Origin: Tissierellales bacterium
GTDB taxonomy: Bacteria; Bacillota; Clostridia; Tissierellales; Sedimentibacteraceae
Direction: 5' to 3'
NCBI GenBank assembly: GCA_018433765.1
Contig: JAHDQO010000010.1
Location: 62,001-126,000, forward strand
Length of the DNA: 64,000 nucleotides
A program made the position numbers and the translations under genes. Under the pieces are notes generated by a model. The model had not been told where the DNA came from. It saw nothing but the letters and a program-made list of their open reading frames with translations, and made no database searches. Shown piece after piece: positions 12,462 to 47,023 of the stretch (position 1 is its first letter; each line of letters begins with the position of its first letter).

Positions 12462-12484
12462 TATTAATGAAAGGGAACAGTTTT

Positions 12485-13123
12485 ATGAGACTTAGACATG
12501 TAGAAAATGGATTTGATATATTAAACAAACATCCTAAAGTAATAACAAAACCTGAAAAATATAATAAAAAAATAACTAATTTTTTTAATAACAATAATCC
12601 TATACATATAGAATTAGGATCTGGTAAAGGTAAATTTCTAACAGAAATGGCTAATTTATATCCAAATATTAATTATTTTGGATTTGAAAAAGACACGAAA
12701 GTCATTTATAGATGGATAAAAAAAATTAATAAAGATTGTCCTGATAATTATTATATAATTCATTCTAATGCGGACATGCTATTAGAAATTTTTGAGGAAA
12801 AAAGTATAGAACGTATTTATCTTAATTTTTCAGATCCTTGGCCTAAACCGAGACATCATAAAAGAAGATTGACGGACAAGCAGTTTTTAGATTTATATGA
12901 AGTTGTTCTTAAAAAACAGGGAGAATTGCATTTTAAAACAGATAACAATGATTTATTTGATTTTTCATTGTTACAGCTAAAAGAAAATGGATGGCAAATA
13001 AAATTAGCAACAAGAGACCTTCACAAAAGTAATTATGTGGAGGATAATGTAATGACAGAATATGAAGAGAAATTTGTAATTGAAGGAAAGAACATTAACA
13101 AACTTGTTGCTTTTAAAAAATAA
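12485..13123 (+). CDS. trmB: tRNA (guanine-N7)-methyltransferase
   Basis: 212 aa SAM-dependent methyltransferase that forms m7G46 in tRNA. Motifs: SAM-binding ELGSGKGKFL (about 44-53), FEKD for the ribose-binding acidic site, FSDPWPKPRHHKRRL (the hallmark TrmB motif, about 118-132), and the C-terminal T-x-Y-E (MTEYEEKF). Start at 12485 is chosen because AAAGGGA (12470-12476) sits 8 bases before it; the ATG at 12467 lies upstream of that SD. Two small genes follow on the same strand within 40 bases. Confidence 0.95.
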   Translation: MRLRHVENGFDILNKHPKVITKPEKYNKKITNFFNNNNPIHIELGSGKGKFLTEMANLYPNINYFGFEKDTKVIYRWIKKINKDCPDNYYIIHSNADMLLEIFEEKSIERIYLNFSDPWPKPRHHKRRLTDKQFLDLYEVVLKKQGELHFKTDNNDLFDFSLLQLKENGWQIKLATRDLHKSNYVEDNVMTEYEEKFVIEGKNINKLVAFKK

Positions 13124-13160
13124 AACTATACTGATAATATATAAGGAGAATTAAAATATT

Positions 13161-13442
13161 ATGTTAATTTATTTTGCAGTTATAAATATAATATCGTTTA
13201 CAGCTGTTTATATAGATAAGAAGAAAGCAAAAAAGCATAAGTGGAGAATAAGGGAGAATCATCTACATGCTTTATCTCTATTAGGTGGTGCCATTGGAAC
13301 AGTAATTAGTATGACTACCTTTAATCATAAAACAAAAAAAGTAAGGTTTTGTGTTATAACAGCGACATTACTTTTTATAAATATATTAGTTTATATAAAA
13401 TTGTTCTTTCCGAAATTATTAATTTTTTTTATTAATTGCTGA
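13161..13442 (+). CDS. DUF1294 membrane protein
   Basis: 93 aa. Hydrophobic N-terminus (IYFAVINIISFTAVYI), a conserved basic stretch DKKKAKKHKWRIRE followed by LLGGAIGTVISM, then TFNHKTKK and a final membrane helix. This is the DUF1294 pattern (small inner-membrane protein). Function is unknown. SD AAGGAG lies 37 bases after trmB, so it is likely in the same transcript. Confidence 0.8.
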   Translation: MLIYFAVINIISFTAVYIDKKKAKKHKWRIRENHLHALSLLGGAIGTVISMTTFNHKTKKVRFCVITATLLFINILVYIKLFFPKLLIFFINC

Positions 13443-13453
13443 AGGAGTAGACC

Positions 13454-13921
13454 ATGAAAAAAACAAATGCTATACGATTGTTAGAATCAAAAAATATAGA
13501 TCATGAAGTTTTAACATATGAAATTGTTGATGGAAAAATAGATGGCATTTCAGTAGCAAAAAAAATTAGTCATAATCCTGATTATGTTTTTAAAACTTTA
13601 GTTACTCTTGGAAATAGTAAAAGTATATATGTATTTTGTATTCCTGTAGAGTTTGAACTAAATTTAAAAAAAGCCGCTAATGCAGTAAAAGAAAAGAAAA
13701 TTGAAATGCTGCCGTCTAAAGATTTATTTAAGTTTACAGGATATGTTAGAGGAGGCTGTTCACCAATAGGAATGAAGAAGAATTACATAACTGTTATTGA
13801 TGAAACAGCTAGTATTCAGGAAAAAATAATTTTTAGTGGAGGGGCTATTGGTATACAAATAATGCTTAATCCAGATTGTTTACTAAAAATTGTTAATGGT
13901 AAATATGCAGATTTAACTTAA
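13454..13921 (+). CDS. YbaK/EbsC-type Cys-tRNA(Pro) deacylase
   Basis: 155 aa of the YbaK/ProX-like trans-editing family, which hydrolyses mischarged aminoacyl-tRNA (typically Cys-tRNAPro). Characteristic features: TNAIRLLESKNIDHEV at the start, VFKTLVTLG containing the catalytic-region Lys, the VKEKKIEMLP loop, and RGGCSPIGMKK (GxxSPxG motif) near residue 100. SD AAGGAG precedes it; it is the third gene of trmB-DUF1294-ybaK, and seven bases after its stop the aroF leader promoter begins. The specific tRNA cannot be proved from sequence. Confidence 0.88.
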   Translation: MKKTNAIRLLESKNIDHEVLTYEIVDGKIDGISVAKKISHNPDYVFKTLVTLGNSKSIYVFCIPVEFELNLKKAANAVKEKKIEMLPSKDLFKFTGYVRGGCSPIGMKKNYITVIDETASIQEKIIFSGGAIGIQIMLNPDCLLKIVNGKYADLT

Positions 13922-13927
13922 AAGTTG

Positions 13928-13956
13928 TTGACATGAAATAGTGATTAACGTATAAT
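13928..13956 (+). promoter_or_regulatory. Consensus sigma-A promoter of the aroF-pheA leader
   Basis: TTGACA (13928-13933), exactly 17 bases, TATAAT (13951-13956): a perfect consensus promoter. Transcription would begin near 13963, about 30 bases before the leader-peptide ATG and 370 bases before aroF. Confidence 0.88.
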
Positions 13957-13993
13957 ATTTTCTAATACATTCGAAAGAAATGAGAAATGTCAA

Positions 13994-14104
13994 ATGATAA
14001 TTAATAAAAACTTTGCAAATACAAAACAAAATTATTTTAATAACTTTTTTAGCTTTTTCTGGGGCTTTTTTAGCGCTGGATTTTTCTCTTGCAGTAAAAC
14101 TTAA
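13994..14104 (+). CDS. Phe-rich leader peptide of the aroF-pheA operon
   Basis: 36-codon open frame, ATG at 13994, TAA at 14102. It has ten Phe codons, one Tyr and one Trp; the core reads FFSFFWGFFSAGFF (codons 18-31). This strongly recalls the pheA/pheST leader peptides of enterobacteria. It lies between a consensus promoter and an intrinsic terminator upstream of DAHP synthase and prephenate dehydratase, enzymes of Phe synthesis. The SD is weak (GAGA about 8 bases before the ATG). Inferred role: ribosome stalling at Phe codons when Phe-tRNA is scarce. The peptide itself probably has no function after synthesis. Confidence 0.78.
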   Translation: MIINKNFANTKQNYFNNFFSFFWGFFSAGFFSCSKT

Positions 14105-14183
14105 TAAATGTTTTAGAAAAAGCTAATAAACTTAAATAAAGAAATTTTAAGCCGCGAGTTTATTACTCGCGGTTTTATTTTTT
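14051..14183 (+). promoter_or_regulatory. Transcription attenuator (competing RNA pairings)
   Basis: Three pairings are visible. Region 1, AGCTTTTTCT (14051-14060, within the Phe codons), is perfectly complementary to region 2, AGAAAAAGCT (14115-14124). The stretch TAATAAACT (14124-14132) is complementary over 9 bases to AGTTTATTA (14157-14165), which is the loop and 3' edge of the 5' arm of the terminator. The terminator stem is CCGCGAG/CTCGCGG (14152-14158 / 14166-14172) followed by a U run. A ribosome stalled on the Phe codons would mask region 1 and free region 2 to compete with the terminator. Stabilities were not calculated; the proposed antiterminator is A/U-rich and may need extension. 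Confidence 0.68.
14152..14183 (+). terminator. Attenuator terminator upstream of aroF
   Basis: 7-bp G+C-rich stem CCGCGAG/CTCGCGG, 7-base loop, then TTTTATTTTTT. One of the best intrinsic terminators of the window, placed 145 bases before the gene it would silence. Confidence 0.88.
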
Positions 14184-14217
14184 ATATACTAGAAAAACTT
14201 TTCTAGTATATAAAAAA
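14178..14217. repeat. Perfect 19-bp inverted repeat
   Basis: TTTTTTATATACTAGAAAA (14178-14196) and its exact complement (14199-14217) separated by two bases. It starts inside the U tract of the attenuator terminator and leads into dispersed-repeat DNA (to about 14300: AACGAGAAACGAGGAAGTAG, TTTTACTACGTAAAAC). It could form a hairpin at the 5' end of a read-through aroF mRNA. Confidence 0.75.
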
Positions 14218-14300
14218 CGAGAAACGAGGAAGTAGTAACGAGTTTTTACTACGTAAAACAAATACAATGTTACTTTTTACTAATTATTAGTTTTTCGTTT
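14218..14300 (+). repeat. Dispersed repeat block before aroF
   Basis: Contains ACGAGAAACGAGGAAGTAG, GTAACGAG and the hairpin TTTTTAC-TAC-GTAAAA, related to modules at 7959-8125, 29517-29880 and elsewhere. It separates the attenuator from the aroF SD. Confidence 0.6.
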
Positions 14301-14328
14301 AAAATAAAATTAAATGGAGGGTAGTTAT

Positions 14329-15339
14329 ATGATAATTGTTATGAAAAAAGACGTAAAAATGGAACAAACAAAAAAGCTTAAAGAAAAGGTAGAAAATTTA
14401 GGTTTAAAAGTAATGATAACAATAGGAGAAGGCCAAAGTATACTAGCTCTAGTAGGTGACACACAAAAAGTTGAAACAGAAAAATTTTCTAGAGAAGAGG
14501 GTGTTGAAAAAGTATTAAGAGTTCAGGAACCTTATAAGCTTGCAAGTAGATTTGTTAAAAAAGATGATACTGTTATTGATGTTGAAGGTACAAAAATAGG
14601 TGGCGATAATCTTGTTTATATAGCAGGTCCGTGTTCTGTTGAAACTGAAGATCAAATAGTTAAAACAGCTAAGGCTGTTAAAGAGGCAGGAGCACATTTT
14701 CTCAGAGGTGGAGCATTTAAACCTAGAACATCTCCGTATAGTTTCCAAGGGTTAGGCATAGAAGGATTGAAACTTTTACGAAAAGCCAAAGAAGCTACTG
14801 GGCTTCCTATAGTGACAGAGTTATTAGATTCTAATGATTATGAAGTAATTAATGAGTATACAGACATTATCCAAATTGGAGCAAGAAACATGCAGAACTT
14901 TGCATTGCTTAAAAAGGTAGGTAAAAGTAATAAGCCTATTTTGCTAAAAAGAGGGATGTCTTCAACAATACAAGAATTCTTAATGTCAGCAGAATATATA
15001 ATGTCAGAAGGAAACGAAAAAGTTATACTTTGCGAGAGAGGTATACGAACATTTGAAACATATTTAAGAAATACTATTGATTTAAATGTTATTACAGTCA
15101 TTAAGCAAGTTTCACATTTACCAATTATTATAGATCCTAGTCACTCTACAGGAAGATGGAATATGGTGGAACCTTTGTCTAGAGCAGCAGTAGCTATGGG
15201 CGTACATGGACTAATGATAGAAGTGCATAATGACCCAGATAATGCATTATGTGATGGAGCACAATCATTAAAGCCGCAAAATTTCAAAAGATTAGTTGAT
15301 AATACTAAAAAAATATATGAAGTTACTAAGGAGATTTAA
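14329..15339 (+). CDS. aroF: 3-deoxy-7-phosphoheptulonate (DAHP) synthase, AroAIbeta type
   Basis: 336 aa. Condenses phosphoenolpyruvate and erythrose-4-phosphate to DAHP, first step of the shikimate pathway. The N-terminal ~75 residues form the ferredoxin-like regulatory domain typical of Thermotoga-type DAHP synthases (MIIVMKKDVKMEQ, VEKVLRVQEPYKLASR). The TIM barrel contains YIAGPCSVE (metal Cys), GGAFKPRTSPYSFQG, QIGARNMQNF, LLKRGM, IDPSHSTG and EVHNDP. Start 14329 is used since GGAGG (14316-14320) overlaps the ATG at 14314. It overlaps no gene but is followed after 2 bases by pheA. Control is most likely by the Phe attenuator upstream; the N-terminal domain suggests additional allosteric feedback. 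Confidence 0.95.
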   Translation: MIIVMKKDVKMEQTKKLKEKVENLGLKVMITIGEGQSILALVGDTQKVETEKFSREEGVEKVLRVQEPYKLASRFVKKDDTVIDVEGTKIGGDNLVYIAGPCSVETEDQIVKTAKAVKEAGAHFLRGGAFKPRTSPYSFQGLGIEGLKLLRKAKEATGLPIVTELLDSNDYEVINEYTDIIQIGARNMQNFALLKKVGKSNKPILLKRGMSSTIQEFLMSAEYIMSEGNEKVILCERGIRTFETYLRNTIDLNVITVIKQVSHLPIIIDPSHSTGRWNMVEPLSRAAVAMGVHGLMIEVHNDPDNALCDGAQSLKPQNFKRLVDNTKKIYEVTKEI

Positions 15340-15341
15340 CT

Positions 15342-16175
15342 ATGGTAAAAGTAGGCTACCAAGGAGTACGTGGAGCATATAGTGAAATAGCTGTATTAAA
15401 GTATTTTAAAGGAGAAGCTGACCCTGTTTCATATAAAGGATTTAAAGAATTAATAGAAGCTGTAGAAAAGGGAGAAGTTCAATATGGCATGCTTCCTGTA
15501 GAGAATAGTACTACAGGAACTGTTACTAAATCTGTAGATTTGCTAAAAGACTATAATATAAATATTGTAGGAGAAGAATATGTTAAAGTTGAGCATAATT
15601 TAATAGTTCTTCAACAAACTTTAGAAGAAGATATAAAAGAAGTATATTCTCATCCAGAAGCATTGAAGCAGTGTGATGAATTATTTGAAACAAATCAACA
15701 GATGCGTCCCATAGCTTATATAGATACAGCTAAAAGTGTTGAATATATAAAGAAAGAAAATTGTAAGCATAAAGCAGCGATTGCAAGTAATAGAGCAGCT
15801 GAGATTTATAATCTTAAAATTTTAAAATCTAATATACAAGATAACAAATATAATACAACAAGGTTTTTAGTAATATCTAATTCTAAAAAAGTAATAGAAA
15901 ATGGAGATAAAATCAGCTTATATTTGATAACTTCTCACAAAGCTGGTGCTTTATTTGAAGTAGTGAAAGTTTTTGCTAATAACAATATTAACATGTTGAA
16001 GATAGAATCAAGACCAATACAAAACAAACCTTTCGAATACTGTTTTTATATAGATACAGAAGGAAATGTTCAAAATTCTAAAACAAAACAATTTCTAAAA
16101 GAATTAAAAAAGCAGTGTATAGAACTAAAAGTTTTAGGTAATTATGTTAGTGGAAAAAGAGAGGAAAAACTCTAA
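15342..16175 (+). CDS. pheA: Prephenate dehydratase
   Basis: 277 aa monofunctional enzyme: prephenate to phenylpyruvate in phenylalanine synthesis. Substrate-domain motifs: GYQGVRGAYSE (residues 4-14), LPVENSTTGTV (the NST motif), SHPEALKQC, KHKAAIASNRAAEIYNL, and NTTRFLVI (the catalytic Thr-Arg-Phe). A C-terminal ACT domain (about 195-275) includes SHKAGALFEVVKVFANNNINMLKIESRP with the ESRP Phe-binding signature. It is translationally coupled to aroF (2-base gap) and ends at a terminator. No chorismate mutase domain is fused and none is in the window. Confidence 0.95.
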   Translation: MVKVGYQGVRGAYSEIAVLKYFKGEADPVSYKGFKELIEAVEKGEVQYGMLPVENSTTGTVTKSVDLLKDYNINIVGEEYVKVEHNLIVLQQTLEEDIKEVYSHPEALKQCDELFETNQQMRPIAYIDTAKSVEYIKKENCKHKAAIASNRAAEIYNLKILKSNIQDNKYNTTRFLVISNSKKVIENGDKISLYLITSHKAGALFEVVKVFANNNINMLKIESRPIQNKPFEYCFYIDTEGNVQNSKTKQFLKELKKQCIELKVLGNYVSGKREEKL

Positions 16176-16212
16176 AACCTTACTAAAATTCACGTAAGGT
16201 TTTACTTTTTTT
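16174..16212. terminator. Terminator of aroF-pheA
   Basis: AAAACCTTAC / GTAAGGTTTT 10-bp stem (16174-16183 / 16194-16203) followed by ACTTTTTTTT. It overlaps the pheA stop and the 3' end of the convergent EamA gene, so it may serve both. Confidence 0.85.
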
Positions 16213-17085
16213 TCTACCAGTAATAATAAATACAGATGAAATTATTAAAAATGTTCCAAAAACTTGAGTTAAAGTTATTTTTTCACCTAAAGTAAACATA
16301 CTTGCTACTATTGTAATAACAGGAAGCAGATTAATTAAGATAGTGCATATAGTTGTACCTAATTTTTCAAGAGAATAGACGTATAATAAGTATGATAATG
16401 CTGAGCAAATTACTCCTAAATATAATACATGTAAAATGGGTATAATTGTAACACTATGCCAATCTACAGGATTAAAAGGAAGTAGTATTAAGAAAAAAAA
16501 TGTACCAAATAAAGTTTGATAATATGTTATAGTAAGTATAGTATATTTTTCGTACAAAGGTTTTGTAAATAAATTATATAAAACCCAAGATAAAGAAGCT
16601 AATAACATTAATATAATTCCTTTTAGAGAAAAAAATGAGGAAGTAGAAGTATTTATTCCAACTACAAAACATACTCCTATAACAGATATTAAAACACTTA
16701 ATATTTTTTTAAGAGTAAAAGGTTCCTTATATACTATTGAATCTAAAACCATAGCTAGTACAGGAATAGTACTCAAAAGAATAGAACCTAAAGAAGCTGA
16801 TACGTATTTAAGACCTGTATTCTCAAATAAGAAGTATAAAAAGATACCTATAAATCCAGATAAAATAAATAATTTGCAATCTTTCTTTTCCATTTTAGAA
16901 TTAGGTTCTTTAAACTTTATAATAATAAACAATATAATTGATGCAATCAAAAATCTATAAAAAGCTAAAGAAAGTGGAGTAAAACATGTTAATGCAACTT
17001 TTGTACTAATAAAAGAAAATCCCCAAAATATACAAGTTAAAGTCATAGCGAAATATGATTTTGTTGAATTTGAAATATTGTTCAT
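16183..17085 (-). CDS. EamA/DMT-family transporter
   Basis: 300 aa with about ten hydrophobic helices arranged as two EamA repeats (first TLTCIFWGFSFISTKVAL ... GSILLSTIPVLAMVLDS; second GIILMLLASLSWVLYNLFTKPL ... GTTICTILINLLPVITIVAS). This is the drug/metabolite transporter superfamily, cytoplasmic membrane. The family includes amino acid and metabolite exporters; the substrate here is unknown, and convergence with Phe genes is not evidence for aromatic export. SD AGGAGG is present and the frame ends in a basic tail (RKKSK). Confidence 0.87.
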   Translation of the reverse strand: MNNISNSTKSYFAMTLTCIFWGFSFISTKVALTCFTPLSLAFYRFLIASIILFIIIKFKEPNSKMEKKDCKLFILSGFIGIFLYFLFENTGLKYVSASLGSILLSTIPVLAMVLDSIVYKEPFTLKKILSVLISVIGVCFVVGINTSTSSFFSLKGIILMLLASLSWVLYNLFTKPLYEKYTILTITYYQTLFGTFFFLILLPFNPVDWHSVTIIPILHVLYLGVICSALSYLLYVYSLEKLGTTICTILINLLPVITIVASMFTLGEKITLTQVFGTFLIISSVFIITGRKKSKTLREF

Positions 17086-17333
17086 AACGTATTCCTCCTG
17101 TAAATCAATATGCTAAATATAGTATTTTAATTAATTTAAAATATATTAAAAAAAATACTAAAAATAGTATATAGAATAATATTGTATTTTGTTTTAATAT
17201 TATATAAATAAATTAAGTTAATTTACAAACAATACAAGTATAGCATTAAATAATAAATTATTAAATGAAAAAATTATAATGTTTAGGAATTAAAGTTAAA
17301 CATTATTAATAAATTGAAAGGATTATTTATTTT

Positions 17334-18020
17334 ATGAATGTAAATTTATTTATTACAGCAATTACTCCCGGAATTGCATTAGCTCTTATCATTTATCTTA
17401 CAGATAGATTTGATAGAGAACCTATTAAACTTTTATTAAAAGTATTTTTCGGAGGAGCTGTAGCTATTTTACCAACAATTCTAATTGAAAGATTTCTTAT
17501 GTCGTTTAATATATTTAGTGGAATTGTAGCAGCATTTTATACAGCATTTGTAGTAGCAGGTTTTTCAGAAGAATTAATGAAAAGATTTGTTGTAACAAAA
17601 TTAGCTTTTAAACACCCAGCTTTTAATGAAAAATTAGATGGGATAGTATATTGTGTTTTTTCTGCATTAGGATTTGCTACAGTTGAAAATGTTATGTATG
17701 TAGTATTTAGATTTGCAGATGTAGAAAGTGTAGGGTTATATAGAGCTATATTATCTGTTCCTGCACATATGCTCTTTGCAGTTACTATGGGATATTATCT
17801 TTCTATGGCTAAATTTACTGTAGATCAAGACAAAAGTAGATATTATTATAGAAAGTCATTAACATCTCCTTTAATTTTGCATGGTATCTTTGATTTTATA
17901 TTGATGTCACAACAGCCTATTTTAATGCTGTTCTTTATTCCTTTTGTTATTTATTTATGGAAAGTAAATTTACAAAAACTTAATAAGTATTATAAAGAAT
18001 CTAAAGATAGATTTAATTAG
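17334..18020 (+). CDS. PrsW-family intramembrane metalloprotease
   Basis: 228 aa, about seven hydrophobic segments. Conserved PrsW/CPBP-related features: FDREP after TM1, FSEELMKRFVV (EE-K motif, putative catalytic Glu pair), FSALGFATVENVMYV, VPAHMLFAVTMGYY and LILHGIFDFIL (His ligands). PrsW in Bacillus cleaves the anti-sigma factor RsiW; the substrate here is unknown and no anti-sigma gene is adjacent. SD AAAGGA lies upstream. The 3' end overlaps the convergent hydrolase gene by 4 bases. Confidence 0.85.
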   Translation: MNVNLFITAITPGIALALIIYLTDRFDREPIKLLLKVFFGGAVAILPTILIERFLMSFNIFSGIVAAFYTAFVVAGFSEELMKRFVVTKLAFKHPAFNEKLDGIVYCVFSALGFATVENVMYVVFRFADVESVGLYRAILSVPAHMLFAVTMGYYLSMAKFTVDQDKSRYYYRKSLTSPLILHGIFDFILMSQQPILMLFFIPFVIYLWKVNLQKLNKYYKESKDRFN

Positions 18021-29131: not shown

Positions 29132-29218
29132 ATTAACTTTTAATATTATCAATTCTTTTCTTGACAAATATGGATATTTTATGTATAGTTTTTATTGAAA
29201 TTCAAATATTAATATAAA

Positions 29219-29516
29219 GACTATGAAAGAAAGAGTAAGTTTAAAGTCATATTTAATAGAGAGCCAGATAAGGTGAAAGCTGGTATATGACGTTAAATTG
29301 AAGATGGTTCTTGAGTTGTATGCCTGAAACAAGAGTAAGGTATAACGGTTTTATATCCGTTAAATATATAAAGGTTAAGTTAAATGCAAAACTTAGAATT
29401 TAAAATTAGATTTAGATGATTTAACCTCGTGAGATATAAATTGTGAGATTTATATAAAAAAGAGTGGTAACACGGAATACTTCGTCTCTTGGCATGATGC
29501 TAAGAGGCGTTTTTTT
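29219..29516 (+). promoter_or_regulatory. T-box leader (probably Met-responsive)
   Basis: Stem I elements AGAGAGCCAGATAAGGTGAA and AGCTGG, a candidate ATG specifier at 29320-29322 followed by CCTGAAAC, the antiterminator T-box AGAGTGGTAACACGGA (29461-29476; TGGT can pair with the ACCA end of tRNAMet), and a terminator with stem CGTCTCTTGGC / GCTAAGAGGCG (29483-29509, one G-U) followed by seven T. Consistent with control of metG by uncharged tRNAMet. The specifier assignment is by position only. Confidence 0.82.
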
Positions 29517-46511: not shown

Positions 46512-46661
46512 CCTCCTTAAAATTGTAGTGAGTAATACTTCCGCAAATTAAAAGGAGTTTCCTAGTAAACAGCGGAAGCGATAAGATACCGCAGAATTAA
46601 TATTCTTTCGTTTAAGAGCAACCTCCCATCTCTTAACACTTTACGCATCTTACCTACTCTG
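46512..46661 (-). promoter_or_regulatory. Tetrahydrofolate (THF) riboswitch of folT
   Basis: Read on the minus strand from 46661: GTAGGTAAGATGCG, TAAAGTG, AGAGATGGGAGGTTGCTCTT, ACGAAAG, then GCGGTATCTTATCGC, matching the class-I THF aptamer core (GUAGAU-like P2 half, CGUUAAGUGU-like, GAUGGGAUGUCG-like and CGAA/GCGGU elements). P2 is TAAGAT/ATCTTA. Expression platform: CTTCCGC (minus, 46578-46572) can pair with GCGGAAG (46544-46538), and an anti-SD CTCCTTTT (46557-46550) can pair with the SD AAGGAGG (46518-46512). This suggests translational control, off when THF is bound. Confidence 0.88.
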
Positions 46662-47023
46662 TTATTTAATTAAACTAAAAATTTGTTTTACTTTATATAA
46701 CATAATAATATAATAATGATGAAAAGTCGATAATTTGTCGATAATAATTTTTAAAAGTTTTGTTATTAATTTCTATTAGAATAAAATGTAATTCTTGATA
46801 TTTGTTATCAAATTTTATATACTATAATGTATTAGTAGTTTATTATGATAAAAAATGATATAGCAAAGAATAATTGTCATGGAATAACGCTTATTATATA
46901 TGAACTATGTTAAATGTATTTGTAAATACATTTAGGTGAAGATGATACACATGAAGGATGGATATTTGAGGTACAATAGATTTTAAATTGAAATCTAATA
47001 ATACTATGAAAGAAGGAAATTAA
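46662..47023. other. Divergent intergenic region
   Basis: Holds promoters for folT (minus) and the DUF1385 gene (plus), neither with clear boxes. A 10-bp inverted repeat AAATGTATTT / AAATACATTT lies at 46912-46933. An 11-codon frame at 46951-46986 behind AGGTGA is too short to support. In many clostridia rpmE lies upstream of DUF1385; it is not here. Confidence 0.35.

Follow-up and report, generated by a model that had tools for sequence, protein, structure and literature searches.

In standard teaching, attenuation by leader peptides is a proteobacterial way of controlling amino acid genes, and T-boxes are its counterpart in Firmicutes. A short, Phe-rich open reading frame (ORF) ahead of the aroF and pheA genes of a Tissierellales bacterium raises the question of whether this operon is controlled by a leader peptide. 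The locus lies in a stretch of 64,000 nucleotides of contig JAHDQO010000010.1, called the window here. We consider it very probable (roughly 0.8), from the window and related loci, that the leader is a ribosome-mediated transcription attenuator that reads the charging of Phe-tRNA, the Phe-rich ORF most likely acting as a supply gauge that halts transcription when Phe is plentiful. The ORF, its pairings, the terminator, their conservation and covariation, and a codon composition matched to the operon are all seen in the sequence. The attenuator proposed in the initial annotation is supported, with the correction that it is no isolated oddity but a member of a large clostridial family of aromatic leaders.

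Organization of the leader region

The features of the region are collected in Table 1. The promoter, the frame with ten Phe codons, the strong terminator, the two exact complementarities and the two downstream enzymes were all claimed in the initial annotation, and each was found again.

Table 1. Coordinates of the aroF-pheA leader region in the window and of the leader of the second aroF in the same genome
Feature	Position	Strand	Basis or remark
Promoter TTGACA-17-TATAAT	13928..13956	+	12/12 consensus positions; putative function
Leader ORF, 36 codons, 10 Phe + 1 Tyr + 1 Trp	13994..14104	+	sequence, residue pattern
Segment 1	14041..14060	+	N-F-F-S-F-F codons themselves; pairs with segment 2
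Phe codon core FFSFFWGFFSAGFF	14045..14086	+	sequence
P1 hairpin within ORF	14059..14079	+	arms 14059-14066 and 14072-14079; two Phe codons at loop
Segment 2	14115..14134	+	beyond stop codon; partner is segment 1 or segment 3
Intrinsic terminator	14149..14185	+	stem-loop 14149-14175 and T tail; 5' arm/loop 14157-14165 is segment 3
aroF, DAHP synthase	14329..15339	+	PRK08673 / DAHP_synth_Bsub; ATG at 14329; GGAGGG at 14316-14321
pheA, prephenate dehydratase with ACT domain	15342..16175	+	domain match
L199, Tyr-rich leader of second aroF in the window's genome	G000:C32:21436-21540		tyrA after aroF

The attenuator region (13928-14329) begins with a perfect sigma-70 promoter; promoter-like sites showed no enrichment over shuffles (2 found, 3.5 expected). 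The leader ORF encodes the peptide MIINKNFANTKQNYFNNFFSFFWGFFSAGFFSCSKT, whose residue pattern, FSFFWGFFSAGFF, is also present in relatives. The Shine-Dalgarno sequence before 13994 is poor, being not of the GGAGG type, and in the window leader the longest match to the Shine-Dalgarno region is AGAAA; with the AGAAA part counted, 65 of 68 leaders have a match of at least 4 nt to AGAAAGGAGGTGATC. The ten codons for the product amino acid ahead of aroF-pheA are what is expected of a leader-type attenuator, as is a terminator before the gene, here the sole one in 13700-14330, where shuffles gave a mean of 0.1.

Between the attenuator and aroF, at 14210-14310, lies a palindromic interspersed repeat of the AAACGAGAAACGAGG...TTTTTCGTTT type, directly preceded by an AT-rich inverted repeat at 14178-14217. 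Positions 13900-14330 gave 39 matches in the bacterium's own genome, mostly on the palindromic repeat, of which six copies were inspected. The operon is flanked by genes that by resemblance we take to be trmB (upstream) and prsW (downstream), and the gene order around it (window 12467-18020; L207, L208) seems common to L010 and L011. The aroF genes at these two loci are 67-68% identical to that of the window, though they come from a different family of organisms.

A family of aromatic leaders in Clostridia

The window has a GC content of 28%, and 6 of its 743 short ORFs, the leader included, carry at least eight Phe per 20 amino acids, so that the leader ORF alone is weak evidence and conservation has to decide. 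A search with aroF gave at least 80 named loci, with matches in 51 of 61 related genomes. In the 450 bases 5' of 108 related aroF genes, ORFs with at least ten F, Y or W per 20 amino acids were present in 30 cases, compared with 0/108 on the reverse strand and 2/540 dinucleotide shuffles. The six ORFs of the window might suggest that T-rich upstream sequence at this GC content yields Phe codons by chance, but these counts and the residue pattern common to the compiled leaders leave that explanation a practically negligible probability.

From the 108 aroF loci, 27 leaders were chosen by eye, and the pattern common to the leader peptides resembles FYFSWGFYFSAGYF..KK. At E 0.01 a profile of 17 leaders had matches in 52 genomes among 391 of the class, some of the weak matches being unclear. 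It listed 53 places, of which three were unfetched (the own genome, G173 and the second place of G066), and 9 of the 50 fetched were omitted because the leader ORF was unclear or very short (L157, L159, L162 to L168). At E 0.001 a profile of 28 leaders matched 15/398 in the phylum and 20/150 among relatives; matches in G809, G795, G564 and the second place of G042 were left out. Removal of unclear places gave 68 leaders, and later 94 distinct ones, from Clostridia and other Bacillota, most of them ahead of aroF. L199 and L201 are manual additions, two further entries (L270 and L294) are duplicates, and a leader was seen at L205 but stands outside the set. Since L292 has neither a terminator found by the script nor a recognised shikimate gene downstream, it is probably false, and 93 rather than 94 leaders are believable. 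Sources among the loci listed include Clostridium ganghwense, C. frigoris and Tepidanaerobacter. The distribution is patchy: the window's own family is represented by 27 genomes, of which just two, the window's genome (G000) and G023, are among the matches, while 20 are listed as having none and five are not listed singly. Comparison of 17 leaders with Pfam and NCBIfam, allowing E up to 1, brought up three families from Pfam and one from NCBIfam, each with one member, at best E values of 0.037 and 0.11. The leaders, as probable supply gauges, form a widespread and little-described group in Clostridia.

Other kinds of aromatic leader were seen as well. A different Tyr-rich type precedes aroF at L022 (NYYYYYYFYCYIKKLHKYIYKG) and L025, both in the window's own family. 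Much shorter aromatic leaders (e.g. MKNNVFAFYFAYYFMKPYF) precede aroF at L035, L073, L079, L096, L098, L105, L111 and L118; seven of these eight come from MAGs and one from a relative, and by eye each is followed by a terminator-like hairpin. They look like further independent designs.

Alternative pairings and folding of the window leader

Positions 14051-14060 are complementary to 14115-14124 at 10/10 positions, and 14124-14132 to 14157-14165 at 9/9. The first of these, pairing 1:2, extends to 14041-14060 with 14115-14134 and reaches a score of 31, which 0 of 200 shuffles equalled; it provides the competing pairing of an attenuator. The second, pairing 2:3 (AATAAACTT with GAGTTTATT), has nine of nine pairs and a weak energy, and in the window alone gives p 0.086 against shuffles. 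Its hairpin has -5.7 kcal/mol compared with -16.9 for the terminator, the medians over 68 leaders being -9.25 and -14.35. P1 has -9.5 kcal/mol in isolation and is displaced by 1:2 in the fold of the whole leader.

RNA folding had been proposed as a check on the switch, and this check failed to reproduce it: equilibrium folds with modelled ribosome states favoured the terminator in every state once its 3' arm had emerged, and 2:3 reached at most 0.16 (at transcript end 14168) and then 0. Because the terminator dominates at equilibrium, read-through and switching would have to be kinetic. The same dominance is what would be expected of a plain terminator that constantly damps read-through behind a small ORF with no regulatory role; we regard this as very unlikely, given the support across the family for P1, 1:2 and 2:3 and the match between leader composition and operon described below.

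Conserved RNA elements across the family

Family members share P1 within the aromatic codons and an element 2 able to pair with the 5' arm/loop of the terminator, often with a competing segment 1. The arms of P1 are the complementary codons of S-W-G and S-A-G, which flank the aromatic codons. P1 keeps 452 of 636 pairs across 53 distinct arm pairs, while 2000 shuffles of the 3' arms reached a maximum of 446 (the count passes over 4 of the 68 leaders, owing to gaps in the peptide alignment). The inner pairs covary, as in AGCCGCTA with TAGCGGTT (L047), AGTCTGTGGTA with TACCACCGGCT (L068) and AGCCTATGCTA with TAGCATCGGCT (L080). A G.G mismatch is preserved in 39/53. For the Ser of SAG, 48 of 50 leaders use AGC, compared with 19% (688/3601) in the operon genes. 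Our guess is that P1 paces the polymerase and the ribosome.

After the aromatic block, Cys is found in 43 and Lys in 47 of 68 aligned leaders, and neither P1 nor codon reading explains either residue. Such conservation with no evident role in codon sensing would suit a nascent-chain arrest peptide, for which TnaC is the model, that halts its own ribosome in response to a free aromatic metabolite. We hold this to be unlikely, as Phe and Tyr swap freely and track the operon in a way that suits codon reading, P1 accounts for the S-W-G and S-A-G residues, and the window leader keeps the post-block pattern only partly (SCSKT).

The commonest element 2 pairing is that of CTAATGAG with CTCATTAG; others are TTCTAAGG with CCTTAGAA (L186), CCAGTGAG with CTCACTGG (L047), TGCCTGCGG with CCGTAGGCG (L191) and GAAAGAGT with ACTCTTTT (L195). 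The common element (CTAATGAG and near forms) stands in frame 1 in 20/29 leaders, in frame 0 in 8/29 and in frame 2 in 1/29, and being read in different frames it is kept as RNA, not as peptide. Among the 32 leaders lacking it, there are 12 in which at most 3 of 67 foreign terminators equal the pairing with the leader's own terminator. Over the 68 leaders, 2:3 reaches p<=0.05 in 33 (35 do not), with a Fisher sum of 380 on 136 df that is overstated by the kinship of the leaders; 1:2 does so in 27 (41 do not; Fisher sum 352). In a repeat set of 26 further leaders, 25 have a terminator, and the respective counts are 9/25 for 2:3 (16 not significant; Fisher sum 117, 50 df) and 10/25 for 1:2 (15 not significant; 124, 50 df). 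The script's choice of terminator was plainly poor in L050. P1, 1:2 and 2:3 are supported as sets against shuffles, about half of the single leaders not being significant alone, and the relatedness of the leaders means that the Fisher sums and composition tests overstate.

The position of segment 1 varies. A significant 1:2 is present in 27 leaders, and in 23 of them segment 1 starts at codons 2 to 5, in many the L-I-G-K stretch, with element 2 mostly inside the ORF. In the window leader, L010, L011, L195, L271 and L273, segment 1 is the Phe codon run, and element 2 lies near or beyond the ORF end in the ones measured (window, L010, L011 and L195). The p values for 1:2 are 0.005 (window), 0.06 (L010), 0.18 (L011), 0.025 (L195), 0.015 (L271), 0.020 (L273) and 0.015 (L016), and for 2:3 they are 0.035 (L271) and 0.043 (L011), with L010, L016 and L273 not significant. 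Comparison with relatives, also proposed at the outset, has come out in favour of the attenuator: the nearest aroF-pheA leaders (L010, L011, L016, L271 and L273) retain the Phe-rich frame and a terminator, although the pairings are uneven when taken singly.

Codon composition and the downstream operon

A Phe share of at least 0.7 was found in 10 of 11 leaders of aroF-pheA or pheA and in 3 of 49 leaders of operons with tyrA (Fisher p 3.9e-8 with a cut chosen after the data had been seen; p 7e-7 by a rank test, which needs no cut; both without kinship correction). The exceptions are L279 (0.55) in the pheA group and L110, L074 and L169 in the tyrA group. Of the 49 operons with tyrA, 30 showed no pheA, in some cases owing to the end of the contig or of the fetched stretch. 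The earlier set of 68 leaders, at a cut of 0.75, gave 7/7 and 1/37.

The contrast also occurs within single genomes. The second aroF of the window's genome has a leader with the peptide MVNSSFNNLNCIYYYYLGYYYSKGNLLCN, its own TTGACA..TATAAT promoter and GGAGG site (both by eye), and a terminator (2:3 p 0.02); the two leaders of this genome have F9Y1 and F1Y7. The corresponding pairs are F8Y1 and F0Y8 in G845, and F8Y2 and F0Y5 in G058, these two genomes being of one genus, so that the split covers two lineages. Aromatic leaders were also found ahead of sodium:solute symporter genes (L153, L161, L269 and L277), which suggests a link to the uptake of aromatic amino acids.

We think it likely that one old leader-peptide family with a common RNA frame runs the Phe/Tyr branch in Clostridia and in scattered other Bacillota, with a codon mix retuned to the operon: leaders of aroF-pheA would have almost only Phe, those of aroF-tyrA almost only Tyr, and those of whole shikimate operons and of some sodium symporters a mixture. 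As part of the same reading, duplication of the first enzyme would have given each copy a separate gauge. E. coli achieves comparable control by means of TyrR and several isozymes, as against two peptides here. The family offers naturally varied codon mixes whose operon outputs are known, and would be useful for studying how leaders are retuned between amino acids.

T-boxes and other RNA families

The genome of the window's bacterium has 22 matches to the T-box (RF00230), 19 of them over the cut-off, and none of the 22 is at either aroF locus. The first gene behind three of the matches is pheS, tyrS and trpB, respectively, the match before trpB being slightly under the cut-off (89.4 compared with 93 bits). 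With T-boxes and leader peptides in one genome, the organism appears to sense tRNA charging both ways, and the presence of T-boxes on pheS and tyrS and of leaders on two aroF operons makes a division of labour between the two kinds of sensor testable.

At gathering score, Rfam gave only a T-box (29214-29492) and a THF riboswitch (46568-46663) in the full window, and no match at 12 related loci. At the leader itself, each of the 32 matches obtained with E up to 10 was under its gathering score; among the families compared, Phe_leader (RF01859) scored 16.4 bits on the other strand, with a cut-off of 55. These results bear on the idea that the leader, or P1 within it, works as an RNA aptamer or a protein-binding site, serving a riboswitch or an RNA-binding repressor, with the ORF secondary. 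P1 as a conserved hairpin with its preserved mismatch would agree with such a role, but it is small, lies within a conserved reading frame and has aromatic codons as its loop, and together with the lack of Rfam matches at the window locus and the 12 others this makes the idea highly unlikely.

Proposed mechanism

For the attenuator reading Phe-tRNA charging, we infer a start site, translation, stalling, termination and read-through as follows. RNA polymerase would start at about 13963, with a ribosome following it along the 36-codon ORF. When Phe-tRNA runs short, the ribosome would stall in the Phe codons that make up segment 1, leaving segment 2 (14115-14134) free for the 5' arm/loop of the terminator, and transcription would continue into aroF-pheA. 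With ample Phe-tRNA, or with an untranslated leader, segment 2 would pair with segment 1, the terminator at 14149-14175 would form, and transcription would stop.

Comparison with known systems

The enterobacterial pheA leader (RF01859) resembles that of the window in having a Phe-rich leader ORF, alternative hairpins, a terminator and pheA downstream. It differs in that here aroF comes first, the codon block contains P1, and there are sister leaders for Tyr or for Phe and Tyr together; the two may be convergent in origin. The T-box is likewise a sensor of tRNA charging that controls termination, as we propose for the leader.

We found no description of the clostridial leader family in the passages covered, which come from a literature with few subscription journals and, for PMC6429828, from its text. 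Two published sets of upstream ORFs come close to it. In the parts of the report seen, Stav 2019 (PMC6429828) studied five genomes, C. novyi NT among them, and gave two uORF candidates beside shikimate genes, coding Phe and Tyr. As described in the available text of Brewer 2021 (PMC8632094), uORFC-13-1 lies upstream of aroF, has a U-run uORF with at least one Phe and a terminator just downstream, and is represented by 24 examples, from Acholeplasma and environmental sequences only. Compared by description, these uORFs may include members of the clostridial family. MAGs, two of them labelled Acholeplasmataceae, are the source of three of our leaders (L064, L081 and L066, which is nearly identical), and these three are a lead to a family shared with uORFC-13-1. 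For Firmicutes, attenuators with a His leader were reported in 2010 (Naville and Gautheret, PMC2965389) and 2022 (PMC9413887); from the portions of these papers available, they too are leader-peptide attenuation amid the usual T-boxes, and differ from the aromatic leaders in having His codons and his genes.
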